Shown in pieces: positions 22,472 to 62,440 of a stretch of DNA of 64,000 nt. The DNA is from Cliona cf. orientalis (lineage: Eukaryota; Porifera; Demospongiae; Clionaida; Clionaidae), in assembly GCA_963930775.1 (NCBI GenBank), contig OZ005689.1, forward strand, positions 25,914,058-25,978,057, in the 5' to 3' direction. Each line of letters opens with the position of its first letter. Positions within the stretch are counted from its first letter, which is position 1. A model generated the notes under the pieces. That model was given only the letters and a program-made list of their open reading frames with translations. It had not been told where the DNA came from and ran no database searches. Position numbers and translations under genes: made by a program.

Positions 22472-23211
22472 TCAGTGCCTCCTCTGTCGCTTAGGTGTAG
22501 GTGGAGTGTTCTCTTTTGCAGGGTCTGGACAGACGAGATCTTGACACTCTGCTGGGCAAAATTCTCGAATTTTTTCAAATAGATATTGCCTACGTTCAAG
22601 TGACAGCCCAGGGGGTAGTATAGTATGGTGGGAAGTAAGCAATCAGCTGAGGGTGCCCAATGGTCATCTTGTATGAGCTTGATCTCTCACCATCAACGCT
22701 GTCCTTAACAATTACACAGCCACGTTTGGTGCTGGTGAAAGTCAAGTGATGCATCGACTTGATGCCTTTCAAAGCCCGCTGTCTGAATGGTTGATCGAAA
22801 AAGGTTGCCCAGTCGTATGTGGGTACGAGGACCTTGCCATCTTGTGTGCCAACCAGCTGAGCATGATTGACAACTGCTGAGGACTCCACTACTCGCACGA
22901 TGTCATCCAAGCACCCTATCCTCGTTCGCCTGTACTGCTGTTTGAACAGGCTGAAACACCAGTCCGGTGAGAACTTAGTGTGTCCCACTATAAGGAATGA
23001 TAGGGTGATGGTTTTGTTCAGGCCAGCCAAGACTCGCCATGCAAGATACTGCATGACGTAGCGGTTCTTGTTCTGGCCTGAACAGTTGTCTGCGTGGAGG
23101 TGGAGGTTGGCTTCTCCGAAGTTGTGGGTTGCCAGAAAGTGGTGGAGCATGCTAACCTATGTTGTTTGCTCCCTTGCCAGTGTTGACCGCTTCATCAATC
23201 AGGTAGTTTAC
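22472..23211 (-). pseudogene. DUF7869-like transposase copy 2, C-terminal exon
   Basis: Reads VNYLIDEAVNTGKGAN, then LHADNCSGQNKNRYVMQYLA, FLIVGHTKFSPDWCFSLF and RRTRIGCLDDIVRVV, closely parallel to copy 1 and without the two frameshifts of copy 1. Near 22615 a single-base change shifts the frame; the family C-terminus (LSLERRQYLFEKIREFCP, TPPTPKRQRRH) then runs to a stop at 22472. The exon is separated from its upstream exons by the AcademH-like insertion. Confidence 0.75.
23203..23211. repeat. 9-bp target duplication, left (GTAGTTTAC)
   Basis: Identical to 29010-29018 on the far side of the AcademH-like element. Confidence 0.85.
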
Positions 23212-23468
23212 TAGTCTCGTAAACCACACCCTCCTACTTCCGCAGCGCTGGATGTATTGCATCACCAGCACGCGGAGAGAGAGGGTCTGGGAACTCTGGG
23301 CGCTACGCCGTGTCGCCTGCAGGAATGTCGGCAGAGCCAATGGGATTGCAGTGGTCACATGACATCGAGGTCCGCGTCCACAAAAATGTTATCATCGCGA
23401 AAATATACTGTACATGCCAGCTATATACTACTATTAATACTCGCGGAAAAACTGAGAAGTTGGCCAAC

Positions 23469-24823
23469 ATGTTTGATCGAGTAGACGCTGCTATCCACAG
23501 TGCAGTCTCAAGACTTGGTTTCTCTGAACTGAGACCCAAGCAGTTGCTATGCGTCAGAAGGTTCGTAGAAGGCCACGATGTGTTTGTCTCCCTCCCTACC
23601 GGTAGCGGCAAAAGTTTGTGTTATTGGGTTCTTCCTTGGACATTTGACGCTCTCAAAAGAAGACATCGCTCCACAGTTTTAGTTATCAGCCCTCTTGATG
23701 CTTTAATGAAGGATCAGCAGCGCAGTCTTCAATCCCTCGGAGTCAAGGCTATACAGGGTACCTCAGATGACAATAAAATCATTGAAGACATCAAACAAGG
23801 GTACTATGAGATTGTGTTCATCAGCCCCGAACGCTTGCTAACTAGTGAAGACTGGAGGGATATGCTACAATCACCTCTCTACAAAGAGCAGCTAGTTGGT
23901 GTTATTGTAGATGTGTGAAGAAGTGGTAAGTTGTACGCAGTACTCTCAGAGTTAGCTACCATAATCCTTTTCCTCTGTGGTACAGGGGTCAGGAGTTCAG
24001 GAAGGAGTTTTCTCATCTTGGAGAGGTTCGCAGCTTGATTCCTTCAGATGTGCATCTAATGGCACTGACAGCTACAGCTACAAAGCAAAGCAGGAGGGAT
24101 ATTTGCAAAGTACTGAGTATGAAGAAGCCTGTGGTTGTCTCAGTGACCCCTAACAAGCCCAACATCAAATACGAAGTAATTCCGAGATGCAGCACTTTAG
24201 AGGAAACATTAGCTTCTCTGGTTGAGGAACTGCGCCAACAAAGACGCTTGATGGATAGGGTTTTAATCTTTTGCCAAAAATATGACGATGTCACACATGT
24301 CTACCGCTTCTTCTTGAGCAGGATTGGAAAAGAGGCATTTGACCCAGTCGGTGCTCCTAATATGGTCAAATATCGTTTGATTGATATGTTCACAGCTTGC
24401 ACCCATCCTGATGTGAAGGATTCAATTTTGGCGTCTTTTACCACTGCTCAGTCTACACTGCGGATTGTGGTGGCAACAATAGCGTTTGGGATGGGGCTTG
24501 ACTGTCCTAATATCAGACGGATTATCCATCTCGGACCTCCGAATGACATAGAATCATACCTTCAGGAAACGGGTAGGGCAGGAAGGGACAATCAGCCAGC
24601 GAAAGCTATTCTCTACCATAACAAATCTGACCTCAAAGTACAACACATACAGGAAAGTATGAAGGCTTATTGTCGAAATACAGAACTGTGTAGGAGAGAA
24701 TTACTTTTAAAGGACTTTGATCAGGAAGAAACACCTAACATCAGTACTGACAGTGTCTGTACATGTATATGCATGTGCTGTGATATATGCAGCAAGAAAT
24801 GTTCATGCCAAAGTAATGATTAG
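23469..24823 (+). pseudogene. RecQ-like helicase of AcademH-like element, motif II deleted
   Basis: Two exons. Exon 1 (23469 to about 23925) has FSELRPKQLLCVRRF, motif I LPTGSGKSLCYW, VLVISPLDALMKDQ and IVFISPERLL. It then reads GVIVD followed at once by sequence matching the end of the HCVKKW block out of frame: about 10 bases of the expected DExH box are missing, causing a stop. Exon 2 (23986-24823) has GQEFRKEFSHLGEVRSL, motif III LMALTATATK, RVLIFCQKYDDV, motif V IVVATIAFGMGLDCPNIRRI and motif VI YLQETGRAGRD, then a C-terminal Cys cluster (CTCICMCCDICSKKCSC). Helicases of this type unwind DNA in 3'-5' direction. Loss of the Walker B box should abolish activity. Confidence 0.8.
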
Positions 24824-24896
24824 AATGTGTCATTGTCAATAATAATTATTATTGATTAGCTCATTATAAACTTTTATAAGGTAAGGGGTCAGGGTT

Positions 24897-27800
24897 TCAG
24901 TGATATGTAAGAATCTTACTAACTGTACTAGTCAACCACTGTTCCAGTTCTTTTCTGGACAAAGAATTCATTGAATTTGGGCGAAAATTAGGAAAGTTTA
25001 CATGGGACCTTTGCGGAATGTCAGAAAATACGTGTGTATCCTGAATTTGTTGGAGGACTTTGGCTAAATCTTTCTTGCTTGAATGTGTAGTATGATACCC
25101 AGATTCCTGTGGTACACCTAGCATCGCATCAAGGTTGTGTACTGTTTCACTTAACACCTTAATAGCCCTTCCGACCTTCTGAATAGATTTACCAGTGATA
25201 TTGGCACCCATACTGGATATTGCATTCTTGCACTCACGATTAAGGTGCTCCATATGAAGATCTGAGGACACATTCTTTCCTGGTCTACCATGAATGTTGA
25301 CTGTTCTGTTCCATTTTAACTGGGCAGCCATGCGAGGTGAAAGGGTAAACTGAAGTTGAAGGAGAAGATGTACAGCCTCTATTGAGTAATTGGTTCGACC
25401 ATTCGCTTTGAAGATTAGCATCATGTATCGCCAACATCTACATATACGATGACCATCTCCTTGTCGAATAGCATCAATGAATTCCATCAGCAGTAAACCA
25501 AGATTGAGGATTTCACATGCATACTCTTTCACACCATCACTGGGAGCCGAGGTAGGCGTTCTTTTCTCCCCTTTACCGAAACTGACGTCAACAAAGGAGG
25601 TTACTATCTGACCAGCTGCTTTAAGGAGGATGTCTCGCCTCTGTAGACTATCAGTTTCTTCTGAAACATTAAACATCTCATGACTTGGTGTGTCCTCCAG
25701 TGATTCCATTCCAAACAGAGTCATAGCTGCAGCTAAAATGTGTGCTTCTGTTAGAAGTAGCATAAAATCCTCACAGGCTACCACATTTTTCTTTGTATCC
25801 TTGACTACATTTCTGCGGTTGATTAAGTTACGCAACTGGTACATGGTACCTTTATCCATTCCCGAGGTGGTGCTATATAAACGTTTCCATATGACCTGTA
25901 TTAAGAAGTTATATGGCACCAATAAACGACTGAGAATTTGTGGGGGGGGGGGGGGGGGGGGGGGGTTGATAGGTGATTTATGCTATGCCCTTATAAGGGT
26001 ATGCTCTCAAAACTTACATGGGTGGAGCAATAATGCCTTGCCATGTGGGCAAATATAATGTACTCATATGCACACAAATACATACCGCCAAAAGAATTCC
26101 CTTTGCATGCCAATCCTCACTGGTTGGTTCAAATCCTTCAAGTCTGTCTAAACTTCTTTCTGAATTGCTTCGTATACGTTGTGCACCACGGGCTCTTGCT
26201 GCCGTAAGTTGATCACCTCCCAACAACATACGATGGAAACGATCTTCTGTAACCGAGCAATCTTCAACTTTGCCTTCAACTGTAACACTTGTCTTAGTAA
26301 CTGATGTAACCATTGGTACGTACTTGTGGAGATCCTCTAGGATAGCTATCATATCAGCATGATTAATCTCGCTTTTCAAAATTATCCCTAAAGGGACCTG
26401 TATACACAGAGCAAATAAGTAAGAATAAGTCAATGTACACTATAGTGTAAACTTCTCACACAAGCAGTACAATTATTGCATATGCAATTTTCTCATTACT
26501 GTGCAAATTGCTCACATGGGTCAATAATTACCCATCACGGAAATTGGAGATGATGGATTAATTTTTGAGGTGAAAAATTAGCCACTTAGATTTGCTACCA
26601 TTCACTTTTAACTCCCCCCCCCCCCCCCAACTGAAGCCAGGTATTGAATGTAAATGTAGTAGTCAGTTAACTTACTACATTCGATTTTGAACTCATCTCT
26701 TCATAGTACTCGTGCCTTATGTGCCGCTCCAGACCATTACCAAACTCTTTAAAAAAAGGCATATGTTTCTTCAATACTTGGGCAATTAGTATGCAAAAAT
26801 TAGCACAAAGAGCCAATTCATCTTCTTTGCTGGGAAGGAGCTTGTCGATACAAATAGAGCTGATATCTGGAGTAGGTTGTTGATCATCATAGTTGGTTAA
26901 ATCAATCCGATCTCTAACACCGTATACATGAAAATAGTGAAGAGACTGTGTTTGATTATCCTCTCTCATGTCACGGGGCTTGTCAAGGTTATCACCAACC
27001 AACTTGAGAGTAGGAAGGGAGGCCGTGGTGGGAGCAAAAGAGATATCATGACCAAATACGTCAGTTACTGATAGATCTGTTGAGCTGCTGTCATCAGGAC
27101 TGCTGGAAGTGGACTTTGCAGATGAAGAGGATTCAGCTGATATATCAGAATACGTGGGTGGTTCAACACTGGGTGCAGATGAAGAGTCGTCATCCGATTC
27201 CGTTGCGATGAGGGGATTCCCAGGATCCACTTGAAATGAAAGACTTGTTTGTTCATCAACACGTTCTGCACCATTGGAATTGGTAGCATCTTCTTCTACA
27301 GGACTGGACTCACTCTAAGACCAAAAACAAAAAAAAATACAATAATACAGGGATTAATACTATAACTGTATGTACTATCGTGCACCAGCCAATAAAGGGG
27401 ATCTGGGGACATGCTCCCCCAGGAAACACCACACAAAGGGGGAATCCCAGGGAGGGAGAAAATCCCAATGGGGGGGGGGGGGGGGGGGGGGAATCCCAGG
27501 GTACGTGTGCCCCCTCTGTATTAATCCCTGCATAATTTTTCATAGCATACCACGTTCATTCTCCTGGTGATCTCGTCTCTCCATTTGATCACAGATGCAT
27601 CAAAGTTACTACCAAGCTTCTCAACACACTTGTTAGTGGCATAGTTGGAGAGGCAAAGACACAGCTTTTGCAATCTGGTATAAACCTATCATATTATAAC
27701 GAGATACCATTAATAATAACAAACATCTTCATTCCTTCATTCAGTGAGCTCACCCTCTTGGATGTGTGACCACAGTATAAGATGATGGAAATGATACGCT

Positions 27801-28776
27801 GTAGAAGATTCATCCTCTGACTCCGACCTCGAAGAAGAAGAGCACAACACACAGATACAAGAAGATCAATGTCGATGATCCTAGATTTCAATTTTTTGTG
27901 CTTAGAAGGTTTTCATCCAAGTAAGCAGCCACGCAAAATTGTCAGAACCGAGGGAGCATATTCTTCCATCTCTTTAATCACAGCTTGGATATCAAAAGAT
28001 TGAATGCTACTAAAATCTCTCTTACGTAGAATGGAATTGACCTTCTTTGAACAAAGCTTTTTCATTTCCTTGCCAGCATCAGTGCCCATGATTTCTACAA
28101 TCTTTAAACGTATACGCTTGTCCTTCATTACTTGTCGAGCAATTGATTCTCTCTTTGACATTCCAACACTCTTGCCAAGCCTTTTTAAGGATCTGCTTAA
28201 AGCGAAGACACGAGAGGAGCCTTTCTTTCGTTTCAGCAGAACCTATAGTATACGTGTACATGTAAATTGATGCAACCAGCTACAACAAAATAAAAATCAT
28301 GATCTCACCGAGACAGATGGTGATCCAGTAACCACTGTTCTTGATAGAATCCGTCTTTCAGGGGTGTCATAGTGTCGCCTTCGCTTTGGGGATGGTCCAG
28401 AGTGGAGTGGTGGTGATAAGTCCCTTTTTTTTGGTGTGAGCGGCAGGATACTATTTTGAGCGGGATACTGTATGAAGAGTGTTCCACCAGATTGTAAAGT
28501 AGAAGTAATCTGATTTACTACTTCTTGAGTATCATTCCTCAGCTTTAATAACTTTTCAAGCTTGGCAAAGCAAGGTCTACACCAGAACAATCGTGAGTTC
28601 TCACCAAAGTCAGGAGGCAGGAAGGTTTTCCCGGGGAATACTCTCTCATACAGCTCAACGAAAACAGGGAGCACTAGCTTGGATGATTTTCCTCCTACTT
28701 TCCTTCTGGAATCGCTTCTAGGAACCGCCCTTCCACAGCAGACACAGAGCTCGCATGGTGTACTCCCTGTAGCCAT
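24897..28776 (-). CDS. DUF6589-type (Academ) transposase, multi-exon
   Basis: Minus-strand gene starting at ATG 28776. Exon 1 has a Cys-rich finger: CELCVCCGRAVPRSD and LFWCRPCFAKLEKLLKLR, then a basic PSPKRRRHY region. Middle exons (about 28250-27913, 27890-27560, 27300-26667) are helical and acidic (SSSAPSVEPPTYSDIS). The exon near 26433-26090 holds VPLGIILKSEINHADMIAIL and GGDQLTAARARGAQRI, the signature block of DUF6589. The last exon (25922-24897) has the helical C-terminus RNVVKDTKKNVVACEDFM to LEQWLTSTVSKILTY. DUF6589 proteins are the transposases of Academ-like elements; metal-binding residues cannot be assigned by eye. Exon junctions were not all verified; no internal stop was noticed in the main exons. 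Confidence 0.7.
25943..25964. repeat. poly-G tract
   Basis: A run of more than 20 G in an intron of the Academ-type transposase. Confidence 0.9.
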
Positions 28777-29009
28777 CGCGAGAATTCACATAAGACATGC
28801 ATGCACGCACAATTAATATCAAACGCGCTCGCGCGATGTGACGGCTGATGACGTTGCAATGCGGTATGTTTTACACGTGACATTGGCAATTATTACATTC
28901 CAAGGCGACACGGCGTAGCGCCCAGAGTTCCCAGACCCTCTCTCTCCGCGTGCTGGTGATGCAATACATCCAGCGCTGCGGAAGTAGGAGGGTGTGGTTT
29001 ACGAGACTA

Positions 29010-29018
29010 GTAGTTTAC
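29010..29018. repeat. 9-bp target duplication, right (GTAGTTTAC)
   Basis: Partner of 23203-23211. Confidence 0.85.
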
Positions 29019-42281: not shown

Positions 42282-44534
42282 ATGCAATTGAATGATGATA
42301 ACTTTGACATAGTGCTGACATTGGAAATCCCGAATCAGCTGCTCTATGACTGGCACAGAAGTTGCATCCCCCCACCTTCAGCTATGCAGTCCAGTCTACG
42401 ACCACCTTTAGCCATGCTATCCAGTCTACCAACGGCCCCATCACCTTCGGCCATGCAGTCCAGTCAACCAACGGCCCCACCACCTTCAGCTATGCAGTCC
42501 AGTCTACCAATGCCCCCACCACCTTCGGCCACGCTGTCCAGTCTACCAACGGCCCCACCACCTTCAGCTATGCAGTCCAGTCTACCAACGGTCCCACCAC
42601 CTTCGGCCATGCAGTCTGCTCTACTAACGACCCCACCACCTTCAGCCATGCTGTCCAGTCTACCAATGCCCCCACCACCTTCAGCCACGCTGTCCAGTCT
42701 ACCAACGGCCCCACCACCTTCAGCTATGCAGTCCAGTCTACCAACGGCCCCACCACCTTTGGACATGCTGTCCAGTCTACCACCACCTTTGGCCATGCAG
42801 TCCAGTCTACCACCACCTTCGGCCATGCAGTCTGCTCTAACCGCCCCACCATCTTCAGCCATGCTGTCCAGTTTACCAATGCTCCCACCACCTTCAGCCA
42901 CACTGTCCAGTCTACCAATGGCCCCACCACCTTCTGCCATGCTGTCCAATCTACCAACAGCCCCACCACCTTTGGCCATGCTGTCCCGTCTACCACCACC
43001 TTTGGCCATGCAGTCCAGTCTACCACCACCTTCGGCCATGCAGTCTGCTCTACTAACCGCCCCACCACCTTCAGCCATGCTGTCCAGTTTACCAATGCTC
43101 CCACCACCTTCAGCCACACTGTCCAGTCTACCAATGGCCCCACCACCTTCTGCCATGCTGTCCAATCTACCAACAGCCCCACCACCTTCGGCCATGCTGT
43201 CCCGTCTACCACCACCTTTGGCCATGCAGTCCAGTCTACCACCACCTTCGGCCATGCAGTCTGCTCTACTAACCGCCCCACCACCTTCAGCCATGCTGTC
43301 CAGTTTACCAATGCTCCCACCACCTTCAGCCACACTGTCCAGTCTACCAATGGCCTCACCACCTTCTGCCATGCTGTCCAATCTACCAACAGCCCCACCA
43401 CCTTCGGCCATGCTGTCCCGTCTACCACCACCTTCGGCCATGCAGTCTGCTCTACTAACGCCCCCTACATATACAGTCCAACCTCGATTATCCGAACCCC
43501 TTTCTTTGGCCAAGGGGAAATTTCAAACCGTTCAGATAAGCAAATAGTTCGGATAACGTTGACCACACCCACCAGACCGATCATGCATACAAAAACGTAT
43601 TATTGACAGATTTATCGATGATTTTAATCCCATCCTCGATTGATAGAAAGCTTACTTTGCGTTTCTTTTACTTCTTTGAGTGTTAAAACTAGATTTGACA
43701 GCTGGGCAGCAGCTGGTTCTCGCGTGGCAACTACGCGACATACATTTACTGCGCATGCGCAAGCCGCACAATGTGTACTTTGACCCGCATTTTCTTTGTA
43801 TCTCGAGTTCGGATAATCGAGGGTTCGGATAATCGAGGTTGGACTGTATTGAGTTTCTATCAACGGCCTCTCAGTCCAATGACCCCTCGATCTATTCAGT
43901 CTGCTCTACCAACGACCCTCTATCTACTCAGTCTGTTCTTCCAACAGCCCCTCCACCTTTTCAGTCTGTTTTACCAATGGCCCCTCCATCTTTTCAGTCT
44001 GCTCTACCAAAGACCCTTCCATCTACGCAGACTTCTCTTTCAACAGCCCCTCCATCTACTCAGTCTGTTCTACCAAGGGTCCCTCCACCTATTTAGTCTG
44101 TTTTACCAACAGCCCCTCAATCTGATCTACCAACAGCCACTCCATCTATTCAGTCTGCTTTACCAACAGCCCCTCCATCTATGCAGTCTGTTCTACCAAT
44201 GGCCCCTCCACCTATTTAGTCTGTTTTACCAAAAGCCCCTCAATCTGATCTACCAACGGCCACTCCATCTATTCAGTCTATGCAGTCTATTCTACCAAGG
44301 GCCCCTCCACCTATTCAGTCTGCTCTACCAACGCCCCCTCCATCTACGCAGTCTATTCTACCAACGGCCCCTCCACCTATTCAGCCTGCTCTACCAATGG
44401 CCCCTCCATCTATGCAGTCTATTCTACCAACGGTCCCTCCACCTATTCAGTCTGCTCTAGTAACAGCCCCTCCATCTACGCAGCCTGCTCTACCAATAGC
44501 TGCACATTCAAAAAACAAATGTGTAATATGTTAA
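42282..44534 (+). CDS. proline-rich repeat ORF built on a minisatellite
   Basis: ATG at 42282 opens a unique N-terminus NDDNFDIVLTLEIPNQLL, then about 380 residues of a 13-residue repeat (PTAPPPSAMQSSL) from a 39-bp unit. A higher-order period of roughly 215 bp is visible at 42840-43430. The repeat unit has no stops in three frames, including the reverse strand, so the open frame is not by itself evidence of a protein. A pogo-type miniature element at 43474-43846 interrupts it. Beyond that a related 33-bp unit (PPSTQSVLPTA) continues to 44534 with some stops. No domain recognised. Confidence 0.4.
43474..43846. mobile_element. pogo/Tigger-type miniature element
   Basis: Inverted ends CAGTCCAACCTCGATTATCC and complement, continuing GAACCC, flanked by TA. 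373 bp. The interior includes TGCGCATGCGCA. Confidence 0.85.
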
Positions 44535-44700: not shown

Positions 44701-44750
44701 GGAGCGTGTTAGCCTCGTACCCAGGCCTGGGTACGAGGCTAGAAGCGTGT
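44701..44750. mobile_element. 32-bp perfect palindrome with 9-bp flanking repeats
   Basis: The palindrome occupies 44710-44741; each half reads TAGCCTCGTACCCAGG. Its flanks are GGAGCGTGT (44701-44709) and GAAGCGTGT (44742-44750), eight of nine identical. Compare 59175-59206. Confidence 0.65.
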
Positions 44751-44759
44751 GTGAGGCGA

Positions 44760-45595
44760 GTGTATCAGCATAGAAAAAGTCCAGGAATGGGTGAGCCTTA
44801 CCAGTGTAGTCTGGATACATCAGAGGAATAGTCTGTATTGTAAAGCAGCTTACATCAAAGCTGAAAATCCCGAGCATATACTTACAATTGAGGGTAGCTA
44901 ACACTTCACTAGTGTTCTGGTACTTCACCCCCCTCCCTCTCTCTCTCTCTCTCTCTCCCCACTCTGACCCTGACCCCATGCACATACACAATAGGTGATG
45001 TTCAGATTTATCGAGTGTTGGAAGAGAGTAATTTCTGTCAACCATAGCTGTGATGATGGAATAGGAGACTGATTGTGAAAGCTCCAACAACCTTCAGCAA
45101 GAGTTCAAGATGGCCTTTGATAGTTAGCAGCTATAATAGCTGGCTTGTACTATGTAATAATATTATCATTGATTGTATGTAAACATACACGGTGAAATAA
45201 CAATTTTTGTACTATTTTTAATAGCGTGTAACTCTGGAATGGCTCGATGGAAAAACTTCGTTCCAGTCTCATATTCTAGAGCAACACAAGGGCTATTGAA
45301 TGGTACCTGAATCATGGGAATCCATCCAAGGGAACCTAGATGCCCCACTTTTTGCGCGAGGCACTTTTGTGAGCGCTTGCCGTGGAGCTCATGAATGTCT
45401 CTGGGTTATGGGACTTGAACGAGAAGAAAGTAGAAGAGTTGCTCTGTCTTCTGGTCTTTGGAGTCCTAGAAGTGAAAGATGGCCTAGATAGAATAGGTAA
45501 GAAAACATAGATAAAAACGGCAAAATTTGCATGCACTGGAATGTGCCACCGGATGCACTTCCTGGATCTGCAACGCTTGTACGTGTTTTGGACCG
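44760..45595 (+). repeat. inverted duplicated segment, copy A
   Basis: Matches 58385-59285 in opposite orientation over more than 800 bp, with scattered substitutions and indels (for example GGAATGTGCCACCGGATGCA and TTGTTGGAGCTTTCACAAT). Both contain a CT/GA-rich tract and short ORFs of similar start (LELSQSVSYSIIT), but no sustained coding. Probably two copies of one non-autonomous repeat. Confidence 0.8.
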
Positions 45596-46325
45596 CTAGC
45601 TTATCGACTGGAAAGTAAGCAATATCTAGCTAATCTATTCTGTGAGATATTAGTACACTAAAATGTGACCGGATTTGGGAAAACCCTCCGTAAGGCGTTG
45701 CCAGAAATGCCGTATGGAGCAGCAGACATCCATGTTTGCATTATAAAAGCCCTTGTAATTACTGATTACAAGCATCATGAATATCATTATAAATTTCATG
45801 ATCGATAAAATCAACTTATTTATCATTATAATCAGGCCTTTGTAGGCTCCTACAATGTAATTTAGTTGCCGTTTGTGATAAAATAATGTAGTCCACAACA
45901 GATCAGTGCAGTTCAACAATGATACTTGATACTAGACAACAAAGTCTAGGTACTGATGGATAACTACACTAAAGTAGCCTAATCTTAACTATTTTCAATC
46001 TAAATAGTCAACAGAGACTTCATCTTGACACTCACAGAAGTCCTGTTCACGATTCAGGGCTTCAGCTGTAGACCAGTTCAAAGGTCATGACATCACTAAC
46101 TAAAACTTCTGCAATATTGCTGAACTTCACCCTCAATTTTAAAATGGCGATGAAGTGAGATTTAGGCTAGATCTATGAGATTTCATAGCTAAACAAGTAG
46201 TCTAGATGATCGGAAGTCGGAATTTTAGGCTACTATTGATGCAAAATCGTGCAAGTTTACAGGCACTTCAGCAAAAATGTATTGCTGTCTATGGACAACT
46301 TGATCAAGTACGTTTGCTAAAATAG
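45596..46325. other. no gene; a solo GTGACC-type terminus at 45665
   Basis: GTGACCGGATTTGGGAAAAC then CCTCCGT at 45665-45691 is a terminus of the DUF7869-type family without a visible partner. The rest shows no coding. Confidence 0.5.
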
Positions 46326-58302: not shown

Positions 58303-58384
58303 ACTATAATTAACTTTGCTGAAGCGGATAATAATATTATTATCACTAAAATTTTAATTAATAATAATAAAGATCAAAATTATC

Positions 58385-59059
58385 AGTCGTTAAGCCAGCG
58401 GTCCAAAACACGTACAAGCGTTGCAGATCCAGGAAGTGCATCCGGTGGCACATTCCAGTGCATGCAATTTTTGCCGTTTTTTATCTATTTTTCTTACCTG
58501 TTCTATTTAGGTCATCTTTCACTTCTAGGACTCCAAACAAAGACCAGAAGACAGAGCAACTCTTTTACTTTCTGCTCGTTCAAGTGCCATAACCCGGAGA
58601 TATTCATGAGCTCTGCGGCAAGCGCTTTTGTGCATGCTACTATAAAGCGCTCACAAAAAGGGCCTCACGTAAAAAGTGGGGCATTTAGGTTCCCCTGGAT
58701 GGATTCCCATGATTCAAGCACCATTCAATAACTCTTGTGTTGCTCTATAATATAAGACTGGAACGAAGGTTTTCCATCGAGCGGTTCCAGAGTTACACGC
58801 TGTTAAAAATAGTACAAAAATTGTTATTTCACTGTGTACGTTTACATACAAACCAATGACATTAACCATAGTACAAGCTAGCTGTATTGCTACTAGCTAT
58901 CAAAGGCCATCTTGAAGTTTTGCTGAAGGTTGTTGGAGCTTTCACAATCAGTCTCCTATTCCATCATCACAGTTATGGTTGACAGAAAGCACTCTCTTCC
59001 AATACTTGGTAATCTGATCACAGGAACATCACCTATTGTGTACGTACATGGGGTCAGGG

Positions 59060-59093
<34 letters not shown>

Positions 59094-59285
59094 GAGGGGG
59101 GGGCGTGAAGTACCAAGACACTAGTAAAGTACTAGCTACCTCCCAATTGTAAGTATACGCTCGGAGTTTTCAGCTAGTCTTGTCCCCAGCCTGGCGCGCG
59201 AGACTAGTTTTCAGCTTTGATGTGAGCTGCTTTAACACAGACTCATCCTCTGATGCACACTGGTAAGGCTCACCCCATCCCAGTT
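58385..59285 (-). repeat. inverted duplicated segment, copy B
   Basis: Partner of 44760-45595. It contains the 32-bp insertion at 59175-59206 that copy A lacks, plus a GA-rich tract near 59065. Confidence 0.8.
59166..59215. mobile_element. 32-bp near-palindromic insertion with perfect 9-bp duplication
   Basis: The insert at 59175-59206 begins TAGTCTTGTCCCCAG and ends GCGCGCGAGACTA. It is flanked by GTTTTCAGC at 59166-59174 and 59207-59215. Copy A has a single ATTTTCAGC at the same place, an empty site. Termini match those of the AcademH-like element (TAGTCTCG). Confidence 0.8.
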
Positions 59286-61279: not shown

Positions 61280-62440
61280 GTCATTTAGGTGTGTAGCTGA
61301 AAGAGCATAAAGGTTAATTAAGGTTATGTGTGGATAATAATAATTATATTAGATGTATGTGTGCGGAATTTGAGCCTGTTCGTGAGTGATTCTGAATGAG
61401 CATATAAATAATATTGTCTAGCCTACTGTAAGATAGCACATCTTACACAGTAAGACTCAGCTAAGATGGCACATCTTTAAGCTGAAAGAGAATAAGGGTA
61501 TGGGTACATGTATGTGTGGATATTTTGTATGTGTGGAGCTTGAGCCTGTTTGTGTCTGGTTGTTGATTCTGAACAAGCATGTAGGATTCTGAACAAGCAT
61601 GTAGTTATTTAGCCTGCTGTAAGATGGCACATCTTTAACAGCAAGACTCAGCCAAGATGCCACATCTTTTAAGCTGAAAGAGAATAAGGGTATGGGTACA
61701 TGTATGTGTGGATATTTTGTGTGTGTGGAGCTTGAGCCTGTTTGTGTCTGGTTGTTGATTCTGAACAAGCATGTAGTTATTTAGCCTGCTGTAAGATGGC
61801 ACATCTTTCACAGCAAGACTCAGCTAAGATGGCACATCTTTAAGCTGAAAGAGGATAAGGGTATGGGTACATGTATGTGTGGATATTTTGTGTGTGTGGA
61901 GCTTGAGCCTGTTTGTGTCTGGTTATCGATTCTGAGCGAGCACGTAGTTATTTAGCCTGCTGTAAGATGGCACATCTTTCACAGCAAGACTCAGCTAAGA
62001 TGGCACATCTTTAAGCTGAAAGAGAATAAGGGTATGGGTACATGTATGTGTGGATACTTGTGTGTGTGTAGAGCTTGAGCCTGTTTGTGTCTGGTTATCG
62101 ATTCTGAGCGGGCACGAAGTTATTTAGCCTGCTGTAAGATGGCACATCTTTCACAGCAAGACTCAGCTAAGATGGCACATCTTAAGGGTATGGATGGATG
62201 GATGTGTGGATATTTTGTGCGTGTGTGTGTGAAGCTTGAGCCTGTTTGTGTCTGGGTGAGTGATTGTGAACGAGCATGTAGGTGGATATCTATTATAGCG
62301 TGGTGTAAGATGGCACATCTTTCACACCAAGACTCTGCTAAGAATCGTTTGGCACAATTCACATATAGCACATCTTTTTGGCCATGCGTAGCCGGTAGAC
62401 AGTGCCGGCCATGTGCTTTCTATATACTCGTGTGCATATG
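61280..62440. repeat. satellite, about 172-bp unit, six to seven copies
   Basis: AAGACTCAGCTAAGATGGCA recurs at 61452, 61643, 61815, 61985, 62158 and, diverged, at 62329. Spacing is 170-173 bp, except one of 191 bp with an extra copy of GATTCTGAACAAGCATGTAG. Each unit holds two GATGGCACATCTT boxes in the same orientation. Confidence 0.9.

Follow-up and report, generated by a model that had tools for sequence, protein, structure and literature searches.

The window analyzed here is a 64,000-nt stretch of the genome of the sponge Cliona cf. orientalis (217 Mb; assembly GCA_963930775.1, contig OZ005689.1, positions 25,914,058-25,978,057, forward strand), and all positions below are counted within it. 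At 59175-59206 (plus strand), the window contains a 32-bp insert, TAGTCTTGTCCCCAGCCTGGCGCGCGAGACTA, which lies between two copies of GTTTTCAGC (59166-59174 and 59207-59215, plus strand). This confirms a sequence-only reading of the window, which had described a 32-bp insert with a perfect 9-bp target-site duplication (TSD). The same reading had pointed to a pre-integration site, and this also holds: an inverted copy of the neighborhood contains one ATTTTCAGC (44860-44868, minus strand) and no insert. We scanned the window for inverted-end units (16-80 bp, with no more than 1 of 8 end positions mismatched) that are bounded by exact 9-bp repeats; 59175-59206 was the single match, and block shuffles gave 0 matches (n = 3). 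A second scan of the window and of 3-kb loci, for other 9-bp-flanked inverted units, gave additional matches that, judged by eye, were tandem repeats or chance.

Both neighborhoods belong to a carrier repeat that is present twice in the window: as a partial copy with the insert (58384-59281, plus strand) and as an inverted copy without it (44789-45610, minus strand). From BLAST comparisons of the window copy to eight 3-kb loci, the full carrier is about 1.6 kb long and has inverted arms of about 430 bp. Its ends read CAGYCGTTAAG..., and 4-bp repeats border several of the copies, as read by eye. Long arrays of 30-39-bp and 33-bp repeats adjoin the empty-site copy (42401-44496), and another tandem array, with a 171-bp unit in 3.5 copies (96% matches), lies at 61585-62183.

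Beside the empty-site copy is a perfect 32-bp palindrome, TAGCCTCGTACCCAGGCCTGGGTACGAGGCTA (44710-44741), which is flanked by GGAGCGTGT and GAAGCGTGT (44701-44750 in all, plus strand) and which we read as a second scar. It has a 9-bp duplication with 1 mismatch, and the sequence-only reading had made no mention of this palindrome. The palindrome sits in the same type of carrier as the insert, at another site; we refer to the insert's site as A and to the palindrome's site as B. Allowing up to 3 mismatches, we found the palindrome at 36 places across the genome (72 rows, on two strands). Many of these are the one carrier site, recognizable by GAAGCGTGT; others, in unrelated DNA, sit between exact 9-bp repeats. 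A scan of viral_contigs for the palindrome gave 0 matches. Site B had no insert in all 8 examined carriers that bear insert A (in L002 it was shortened), and site A had no insert in all 10 examined carriers that bear the palindrome. Thus, the two inserts provide reciprocal empty-site controls for each other. Site B contains the 32-bp form in 11 of 14 places and a 36-bp form in the other 3. A second excision is not required for the 36-bp form, which may have arisen by later small changes: L152 and L155, which are two copies of another site, have a common core with later small differences around it, so the two forms at site B may differ for the same reason. We therefore withdrew differing junctions at one site as proof of repeated excision.

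The window also contains an AcademH-like transposon at 23212-29009 (23203-29018 with the TSD GTAGTTTAC on both sides; no strand assigned), with TAGTCTCG at both ends. Its inverted arms span 119 nt including part of the flank, which gives a TIR of about 107 bp. Inside it are pieces of helicase domains (23223-24823, plus strand) and of DUF6589 (PF20231; 24897-26439, minus strand), which we take to be the Academ transposase. DEAD, Helicase_C, and DUF6589 scored above the cut-off, and RecQ_Zn_bind scored below it. The DUF6589 piece has 342 homologous proteins; the best 120 of the 342 are all PF20231, and nearly all of these are unnamed. An NCBIfam profile search with the same piece returned 0 families. 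The resemblance that had been noted between the 8-bp ends of the insert and the ends of this element holds over 8-9 bp, beyond which no identity was seen; TAGTCTCG is also present at the right end of the insert.

The 20-bp end of the AcademH-like element occurs at 20 places in the genome. In two cases, opposed ends face each other at distances of 5,798 and 5,766 bp, and each pair has an exact TSD; the second pair (G000:C10:5681655-5687420) is known from its ends alone. The other places are five two-ended remnants (88-139 bp) and six single places. Across these 11 remnant loci, the TSD is exact in three (123, 139, and 69 bp) and has 1 mismatch in two (120 and 48 bp). No 9-bp repeat was seen in the other 6, which counts against the interpretation that we favor below. 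The word GCCGTGTCGCC is found at precisely the same position, 96, in both AcademH ends and at position 67 in one end of a 337-bp element (L182); it did not appear in the first 200 nt of each end of 11 other elements that we scanned. This is at most a lead toward mobilization by the AcademH transposase.

The sequence-only reading had proposed that the insert is a mobile 32-bp unit. A genome-wide search with an end-anchored pattern for the insert found 40 places (the reversed control found 0). We inspected the flanks of all 40, and every one had the same neighborhood and the same position in the ~1.6-kb repeat. L180 is one further, diverged copy of this site beyond the 40. A duplication of fixed length is present: the 9-bp repeat around the 40 matches is exact in 27, has 1 mismatch in 9, and has at least 2 mismatches in 4. 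However, these are all copies of one event: because all 40 copies share one carrier site, they reflect a single insertion that was multiplied by the carrier. We did not find independent insertions of this unit at many sites, as all 40 copies are at one site. The unit is always part of a longer conserved element, which the sequence-only reading itself had named as evidence against its view. We therefore rejected a self-moving 32-bp unit as the explanation for this insert, and the earlier interpretation is, overall, partly supported.

We propose instead that the insert is the excision scar of a longer AcademH-type DNA transposon, with stubs of its two ends joined together (probability of about 0.78). 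First, the two halves of the insert match ends that are found on longer elements. The right end, TAGTCTCGCGCGCCAG, occurs at 243 places, and the loci that we fetched include elements of 448 and 337 bp with exact TSDs and one of 475 bp with 1 mismatch; several other fetched loci, among the matches listed, had no partner end. The left end, TAGTCTTGTCCCCAG, occurs at 185 places genome-wide. We fetched 20 non-carrier loci among the matches listed: the TSD is exact in two (216 and 391 bp), has 1 mismatch in two (344 and 315 bp), and has 2 mismatches in three (368, 58, and 29 bp), whereas 13 gave no element. In L201, the end runs on as TAGTCTTGTCCCCAGCCCCC; over 109 bp, it shares 72% identity with one end of L182. 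Compared to the ends of L201 and L181, the insert keeps 17 and 16 nt, respectively, with an overlap of 1 nt. Among the loci fetched, no single longer element has exactly both of the insert's ends.

Second, longer elements with such ends and exact 9-bp TSDs are found more broadly. The related end TAGCCTCGTACCCAGGC occurs at 873 places. Thirty of these loci were fetched, from among the matches listed: 17 have a matching far end and a 9-bp repeat that is exact or has 1 mismatch (some of the 17 are the two ends of one element), 1 has two mismatches, and 12 have no partner. The elements with exact 9-bp TSDs are 280, 313, 632, 639, and 960 bp long, and shorter units with a 9-bp repeat are 123, 65, 53, 33, 32, and 26 bp long. 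Another version of this end, the C form, occurs at 1,650 places, including at least one element of 470 bp with an exact TSD; thus, palindromes of the C form have possible parents of their own. For each of these ends, and for the TAGCCTCGTACCCAG pattern described below, loci were drawn from the first 100 matches listed, which lean to the first contigs.

The lengths of these pairs are also bimodal. Among the matches listed for four end words, there are 56 opposed end pairs: 32 are 39-139 bp apart, 0 are 141-270 bp apart, and 24 are more than 270 bp apart. The pairs were picked by hand (each place was matched to the nearest following one listed for the other strand, up to 1,200 bp away), with the two 5.8-kb AcademH pairs added, and the count misses pairs with altered ends. 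The AcademH-like family has short remnants as well as end pairs 5.8 kb apart.

Third, the genome contains many short two-ended units that are specific to their loci, as expected of excision scars. The pattern TAGCCTCGTACCCAG-(0-30)-GAGGCTA has 232 matches (115 + 117, with palindromes counted on both strands); a match had to include a minimum of 15 nt from one end and 7 nt from the other, so the stub lengths are biased. We fetched 59 of the listed places, and the 9-bp repeat is exact in 31, has 1 mismatch in 7, has two in 1, and has at least three in 20. When we added the 36 palindrome places and 3 other loci, the set came to 98 loci with 68 distinct unit sequences of 26-51 bp, in 63 flank clusters. 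(L113, a 45-bp unit that lacks a clear TSD, was left out of the clustering, as were L085, L101, and L104, which are longer members of the short class.) Most of the units are locus specific, and just five sequences are common to several clusters; some of the differences are later mutations. In 38 of the clusters, the unit lies between exact 9-bp repeats, as joined stubs of two ends would; another 5 clusters have 1 mismatch and 20 have at least 2, including two with exact 10-bp repeats. The remaining 18 clusters, which lack both an exact 10-bp repeat and a 9-bp repeat that is exact or one base off, count against the scar interpretation, as do a nonpalindromic 38-mer and a 26-mer that are each found in 2 clusters. 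A 46-mer is also found in 2 clusters, but since both have the duplication GTAGGTTGA and flank clusters are ungapped matches, which may split one site, these are probably a single site.

Some of the short units deserve separate mention. L085, L090, L097, L233, and L234 have hairpin-like ends that contain CCACTCCCA(C/T)GTTTTCAATG or a slight variant of it. In some of these loci the unit measures about 65-90 bp, and together they are possibly a true multicopy mini-element. More generally, some of the short units of 65-90 bp with recurring interiors may be a true mini-element family, a further point against the scar interpretation. The 38-bp units of L129, L131, and L170 lie within GA/CT-rich simple repeats, where an apparent TSD is uninformative; the 38-mer of L129 and L131 is also found at an unrelated place, L130.

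The scar at site A could have formed as follows. A longer nonautonomous AcademH-type element, whose ends resembled TAGTCTTGTCCCCAGCC... and TAGTCTCGCGCGCCAG..., would have entered an ancestral copy of the ~1.6-kb repeat; the 9-bp target duplication and the ends are observed, and we infer the insertion of the long form. A transposase would then have excised the long element and left stubs of both ends on the flanks. If the two sides of the break were joined directly, overlapping by 1 nt, then the product would be 17 + 16 - 1 = 32 bp, with the duplication kept; the sequence fits this arithmetic, and the joining is the presumed step. Multiplication of the carrier then copied the scar into 40 or more places, as found above. 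We found no long element at either carrier site: all 30 places with the exact left junction of site A carry the short unit, and all 14 with that of site B carry short units. This counts against the scar interpretation, and the excision at these sites is therefore one that we infer.

Sibling scars fit a similar scheme. Two stubs that end in ...CCCAGGCC have the self-complementary word GGCC in common, and if they were joined there, they would form a palindrome of 14 + 4 + 14 = 32 bp. Joining at GGCC would explain the exact 32-bp palindromes without any pairing of the ends of a 32-bp DNA. The next self-complementary word is GTAC, and before searching we asked whether its joining product exists: it was found at 3 places (control, 0), and the one locus that we fetched has a 9-bp TSD with 1 mismatch. 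The product of joining at GCGCGC turned up at 1 place, where no TSD is clear, which counts against the scar interpretation.

How the stubs would arise is less certain. By analogy with the P element, AcademH-type transposases might cut one strand deep within the ends, and the stubs might then rejoin, often at self-complementary words; we offer this proposal tentatively, at somewhat less than even odds. Compared to reference ends, the stubs are 7-36 nt long (longer in the AcademH remnants), and this wide range is hard to reconcile with a single cut unless trimming or copying also took place. An alternative way to form a scar is for the cuts to be at the tips of the element and for the stubs to be copied back from the sister copy, with gap repair halting early. 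This would account for the wide range of stub lengths and for the filler at many junctions. However, interrupted copying might be expected to leave intermediates, and the short class ends near 140 bp among the matches listed. We consider this version, which is part of the probability given above for excision, to be possible but rather doubtful.

Another alternative is that there was no excision: an inverted repeat might have been broken or deleted in place, by hairpin cleavage or a replication error, leaving its tips and the TSD. By eye, several of the ends do have further inverted repeats within them, and several of the junctions resemble fold-backs. But the 5.8-kb AcademH-like element, which is not a simple hairpin, has the same kind of remnants. 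The absence of pairs of 141-270 bp among the matches listed also argues against collapse, although full lengths that are typical of each family add to this gap. We consider in-place collapse to be improbable.

We also considered whether the perfect 32-bp palindrome, and by extension the insert, might itself be mobile, as two 16-bp ends back to back that an AcademH transposase moves in trans. In support of this, the palindrome TAGCCTCGTACCCAGGCCTGGGTACGAGGCTA and its C/G form are each found in 4 flank clusters (one of which is the carrier site), as a mobile unit would be, and every one of the eight clusters includes a member whose 9-bp TSD is exact. However, joining at GGCC explains this recurrence. 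The insert itself is at one site in 40 of 40 copies, the 98 units that we fetched comprise 68 sequences that are mostly confined to one cluster, and the end words are far more common than the palindromes (873 and 1,650 places) and are present on longer elements. Also, 32 bp would probably be very short for the pairing of two ends. Thus, mobility of the recurring perfect palindromes is unlikely, and we give it little weight. Finally, a chance palindrome or an unrelated insertion has a negligible probability and was rejected, as reversed-pattern controls gave 0 in 12 of 12 genome searches and the 3 window shuffles gave 0.

If the insert is an excision scar, then the many similar scars in this genome may document the way in which a little-studied transposon group exits from DNA. 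The position of the transposase's cut and the role of the helicase would become a counting problem in a genome that is rich in scars and still has longer elements. If the cut really is deep within the ends, then AcademH-type elements would be scar-writers: their departure would fix a short tag, in many cases palindromic, in which the 9-bp duplication is retained, and genomes would hold extensive records of AcademH excision that have yet to be read. A more general caution is that a short palindromic insert, even one with a clean TSD, is not necessarily a minimal transposon. Our literature search, which did not reach the main AcademH paper, found no account of Academ-type excision; we view this as a weak sign of novelty.

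The key paper on AcademH, in the Academ superfamily, is reportedly that of Kojima in 2020. According to the accessible part of another source (PMC10045372), AcademH elements have TSDs of 9 or 10 bp. This is similar to what we found, with exact 9-bp repeats in 38 clusters and exact 10-bp repeats in 2, and the element in the window has both helicase pieces and DUF6589. In contrast, the 32-bp unit has no gene or interior and is read as a product rather than an element, and the terminus that it has in common with the AcademH-like element is just 8-9 bp.

The footprints of P elements keep about 13-18 nt per end. The P transposase of Drosophila is described, in the portion of PMC7776569 available to us, as placing its cut at the 5' end within the inverted repeat, at a depth of 17 bp. 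On that description, a deep cut would leave stubs at the donor site beside the TSD, and the 17 + 16 nt of the insert would fit. P elements differ in having an 8-bp TSD, and the sponge stubs range more widely. Unlike the footprints of Stowaway and mariner elements, the sponge scars (26-51 bp) keep stubs of both ends. Copies of Galileo, also from Drosophila, that are reduced to two TIRs exist, as stated in the available section of PMC3573991, and the sponge units are likewise reduced to two inverted ends. The TIRs of Galileo are long, as far as that section describes them, whereas the sponge units are a few tens of bases overall and are mostly locus specific.
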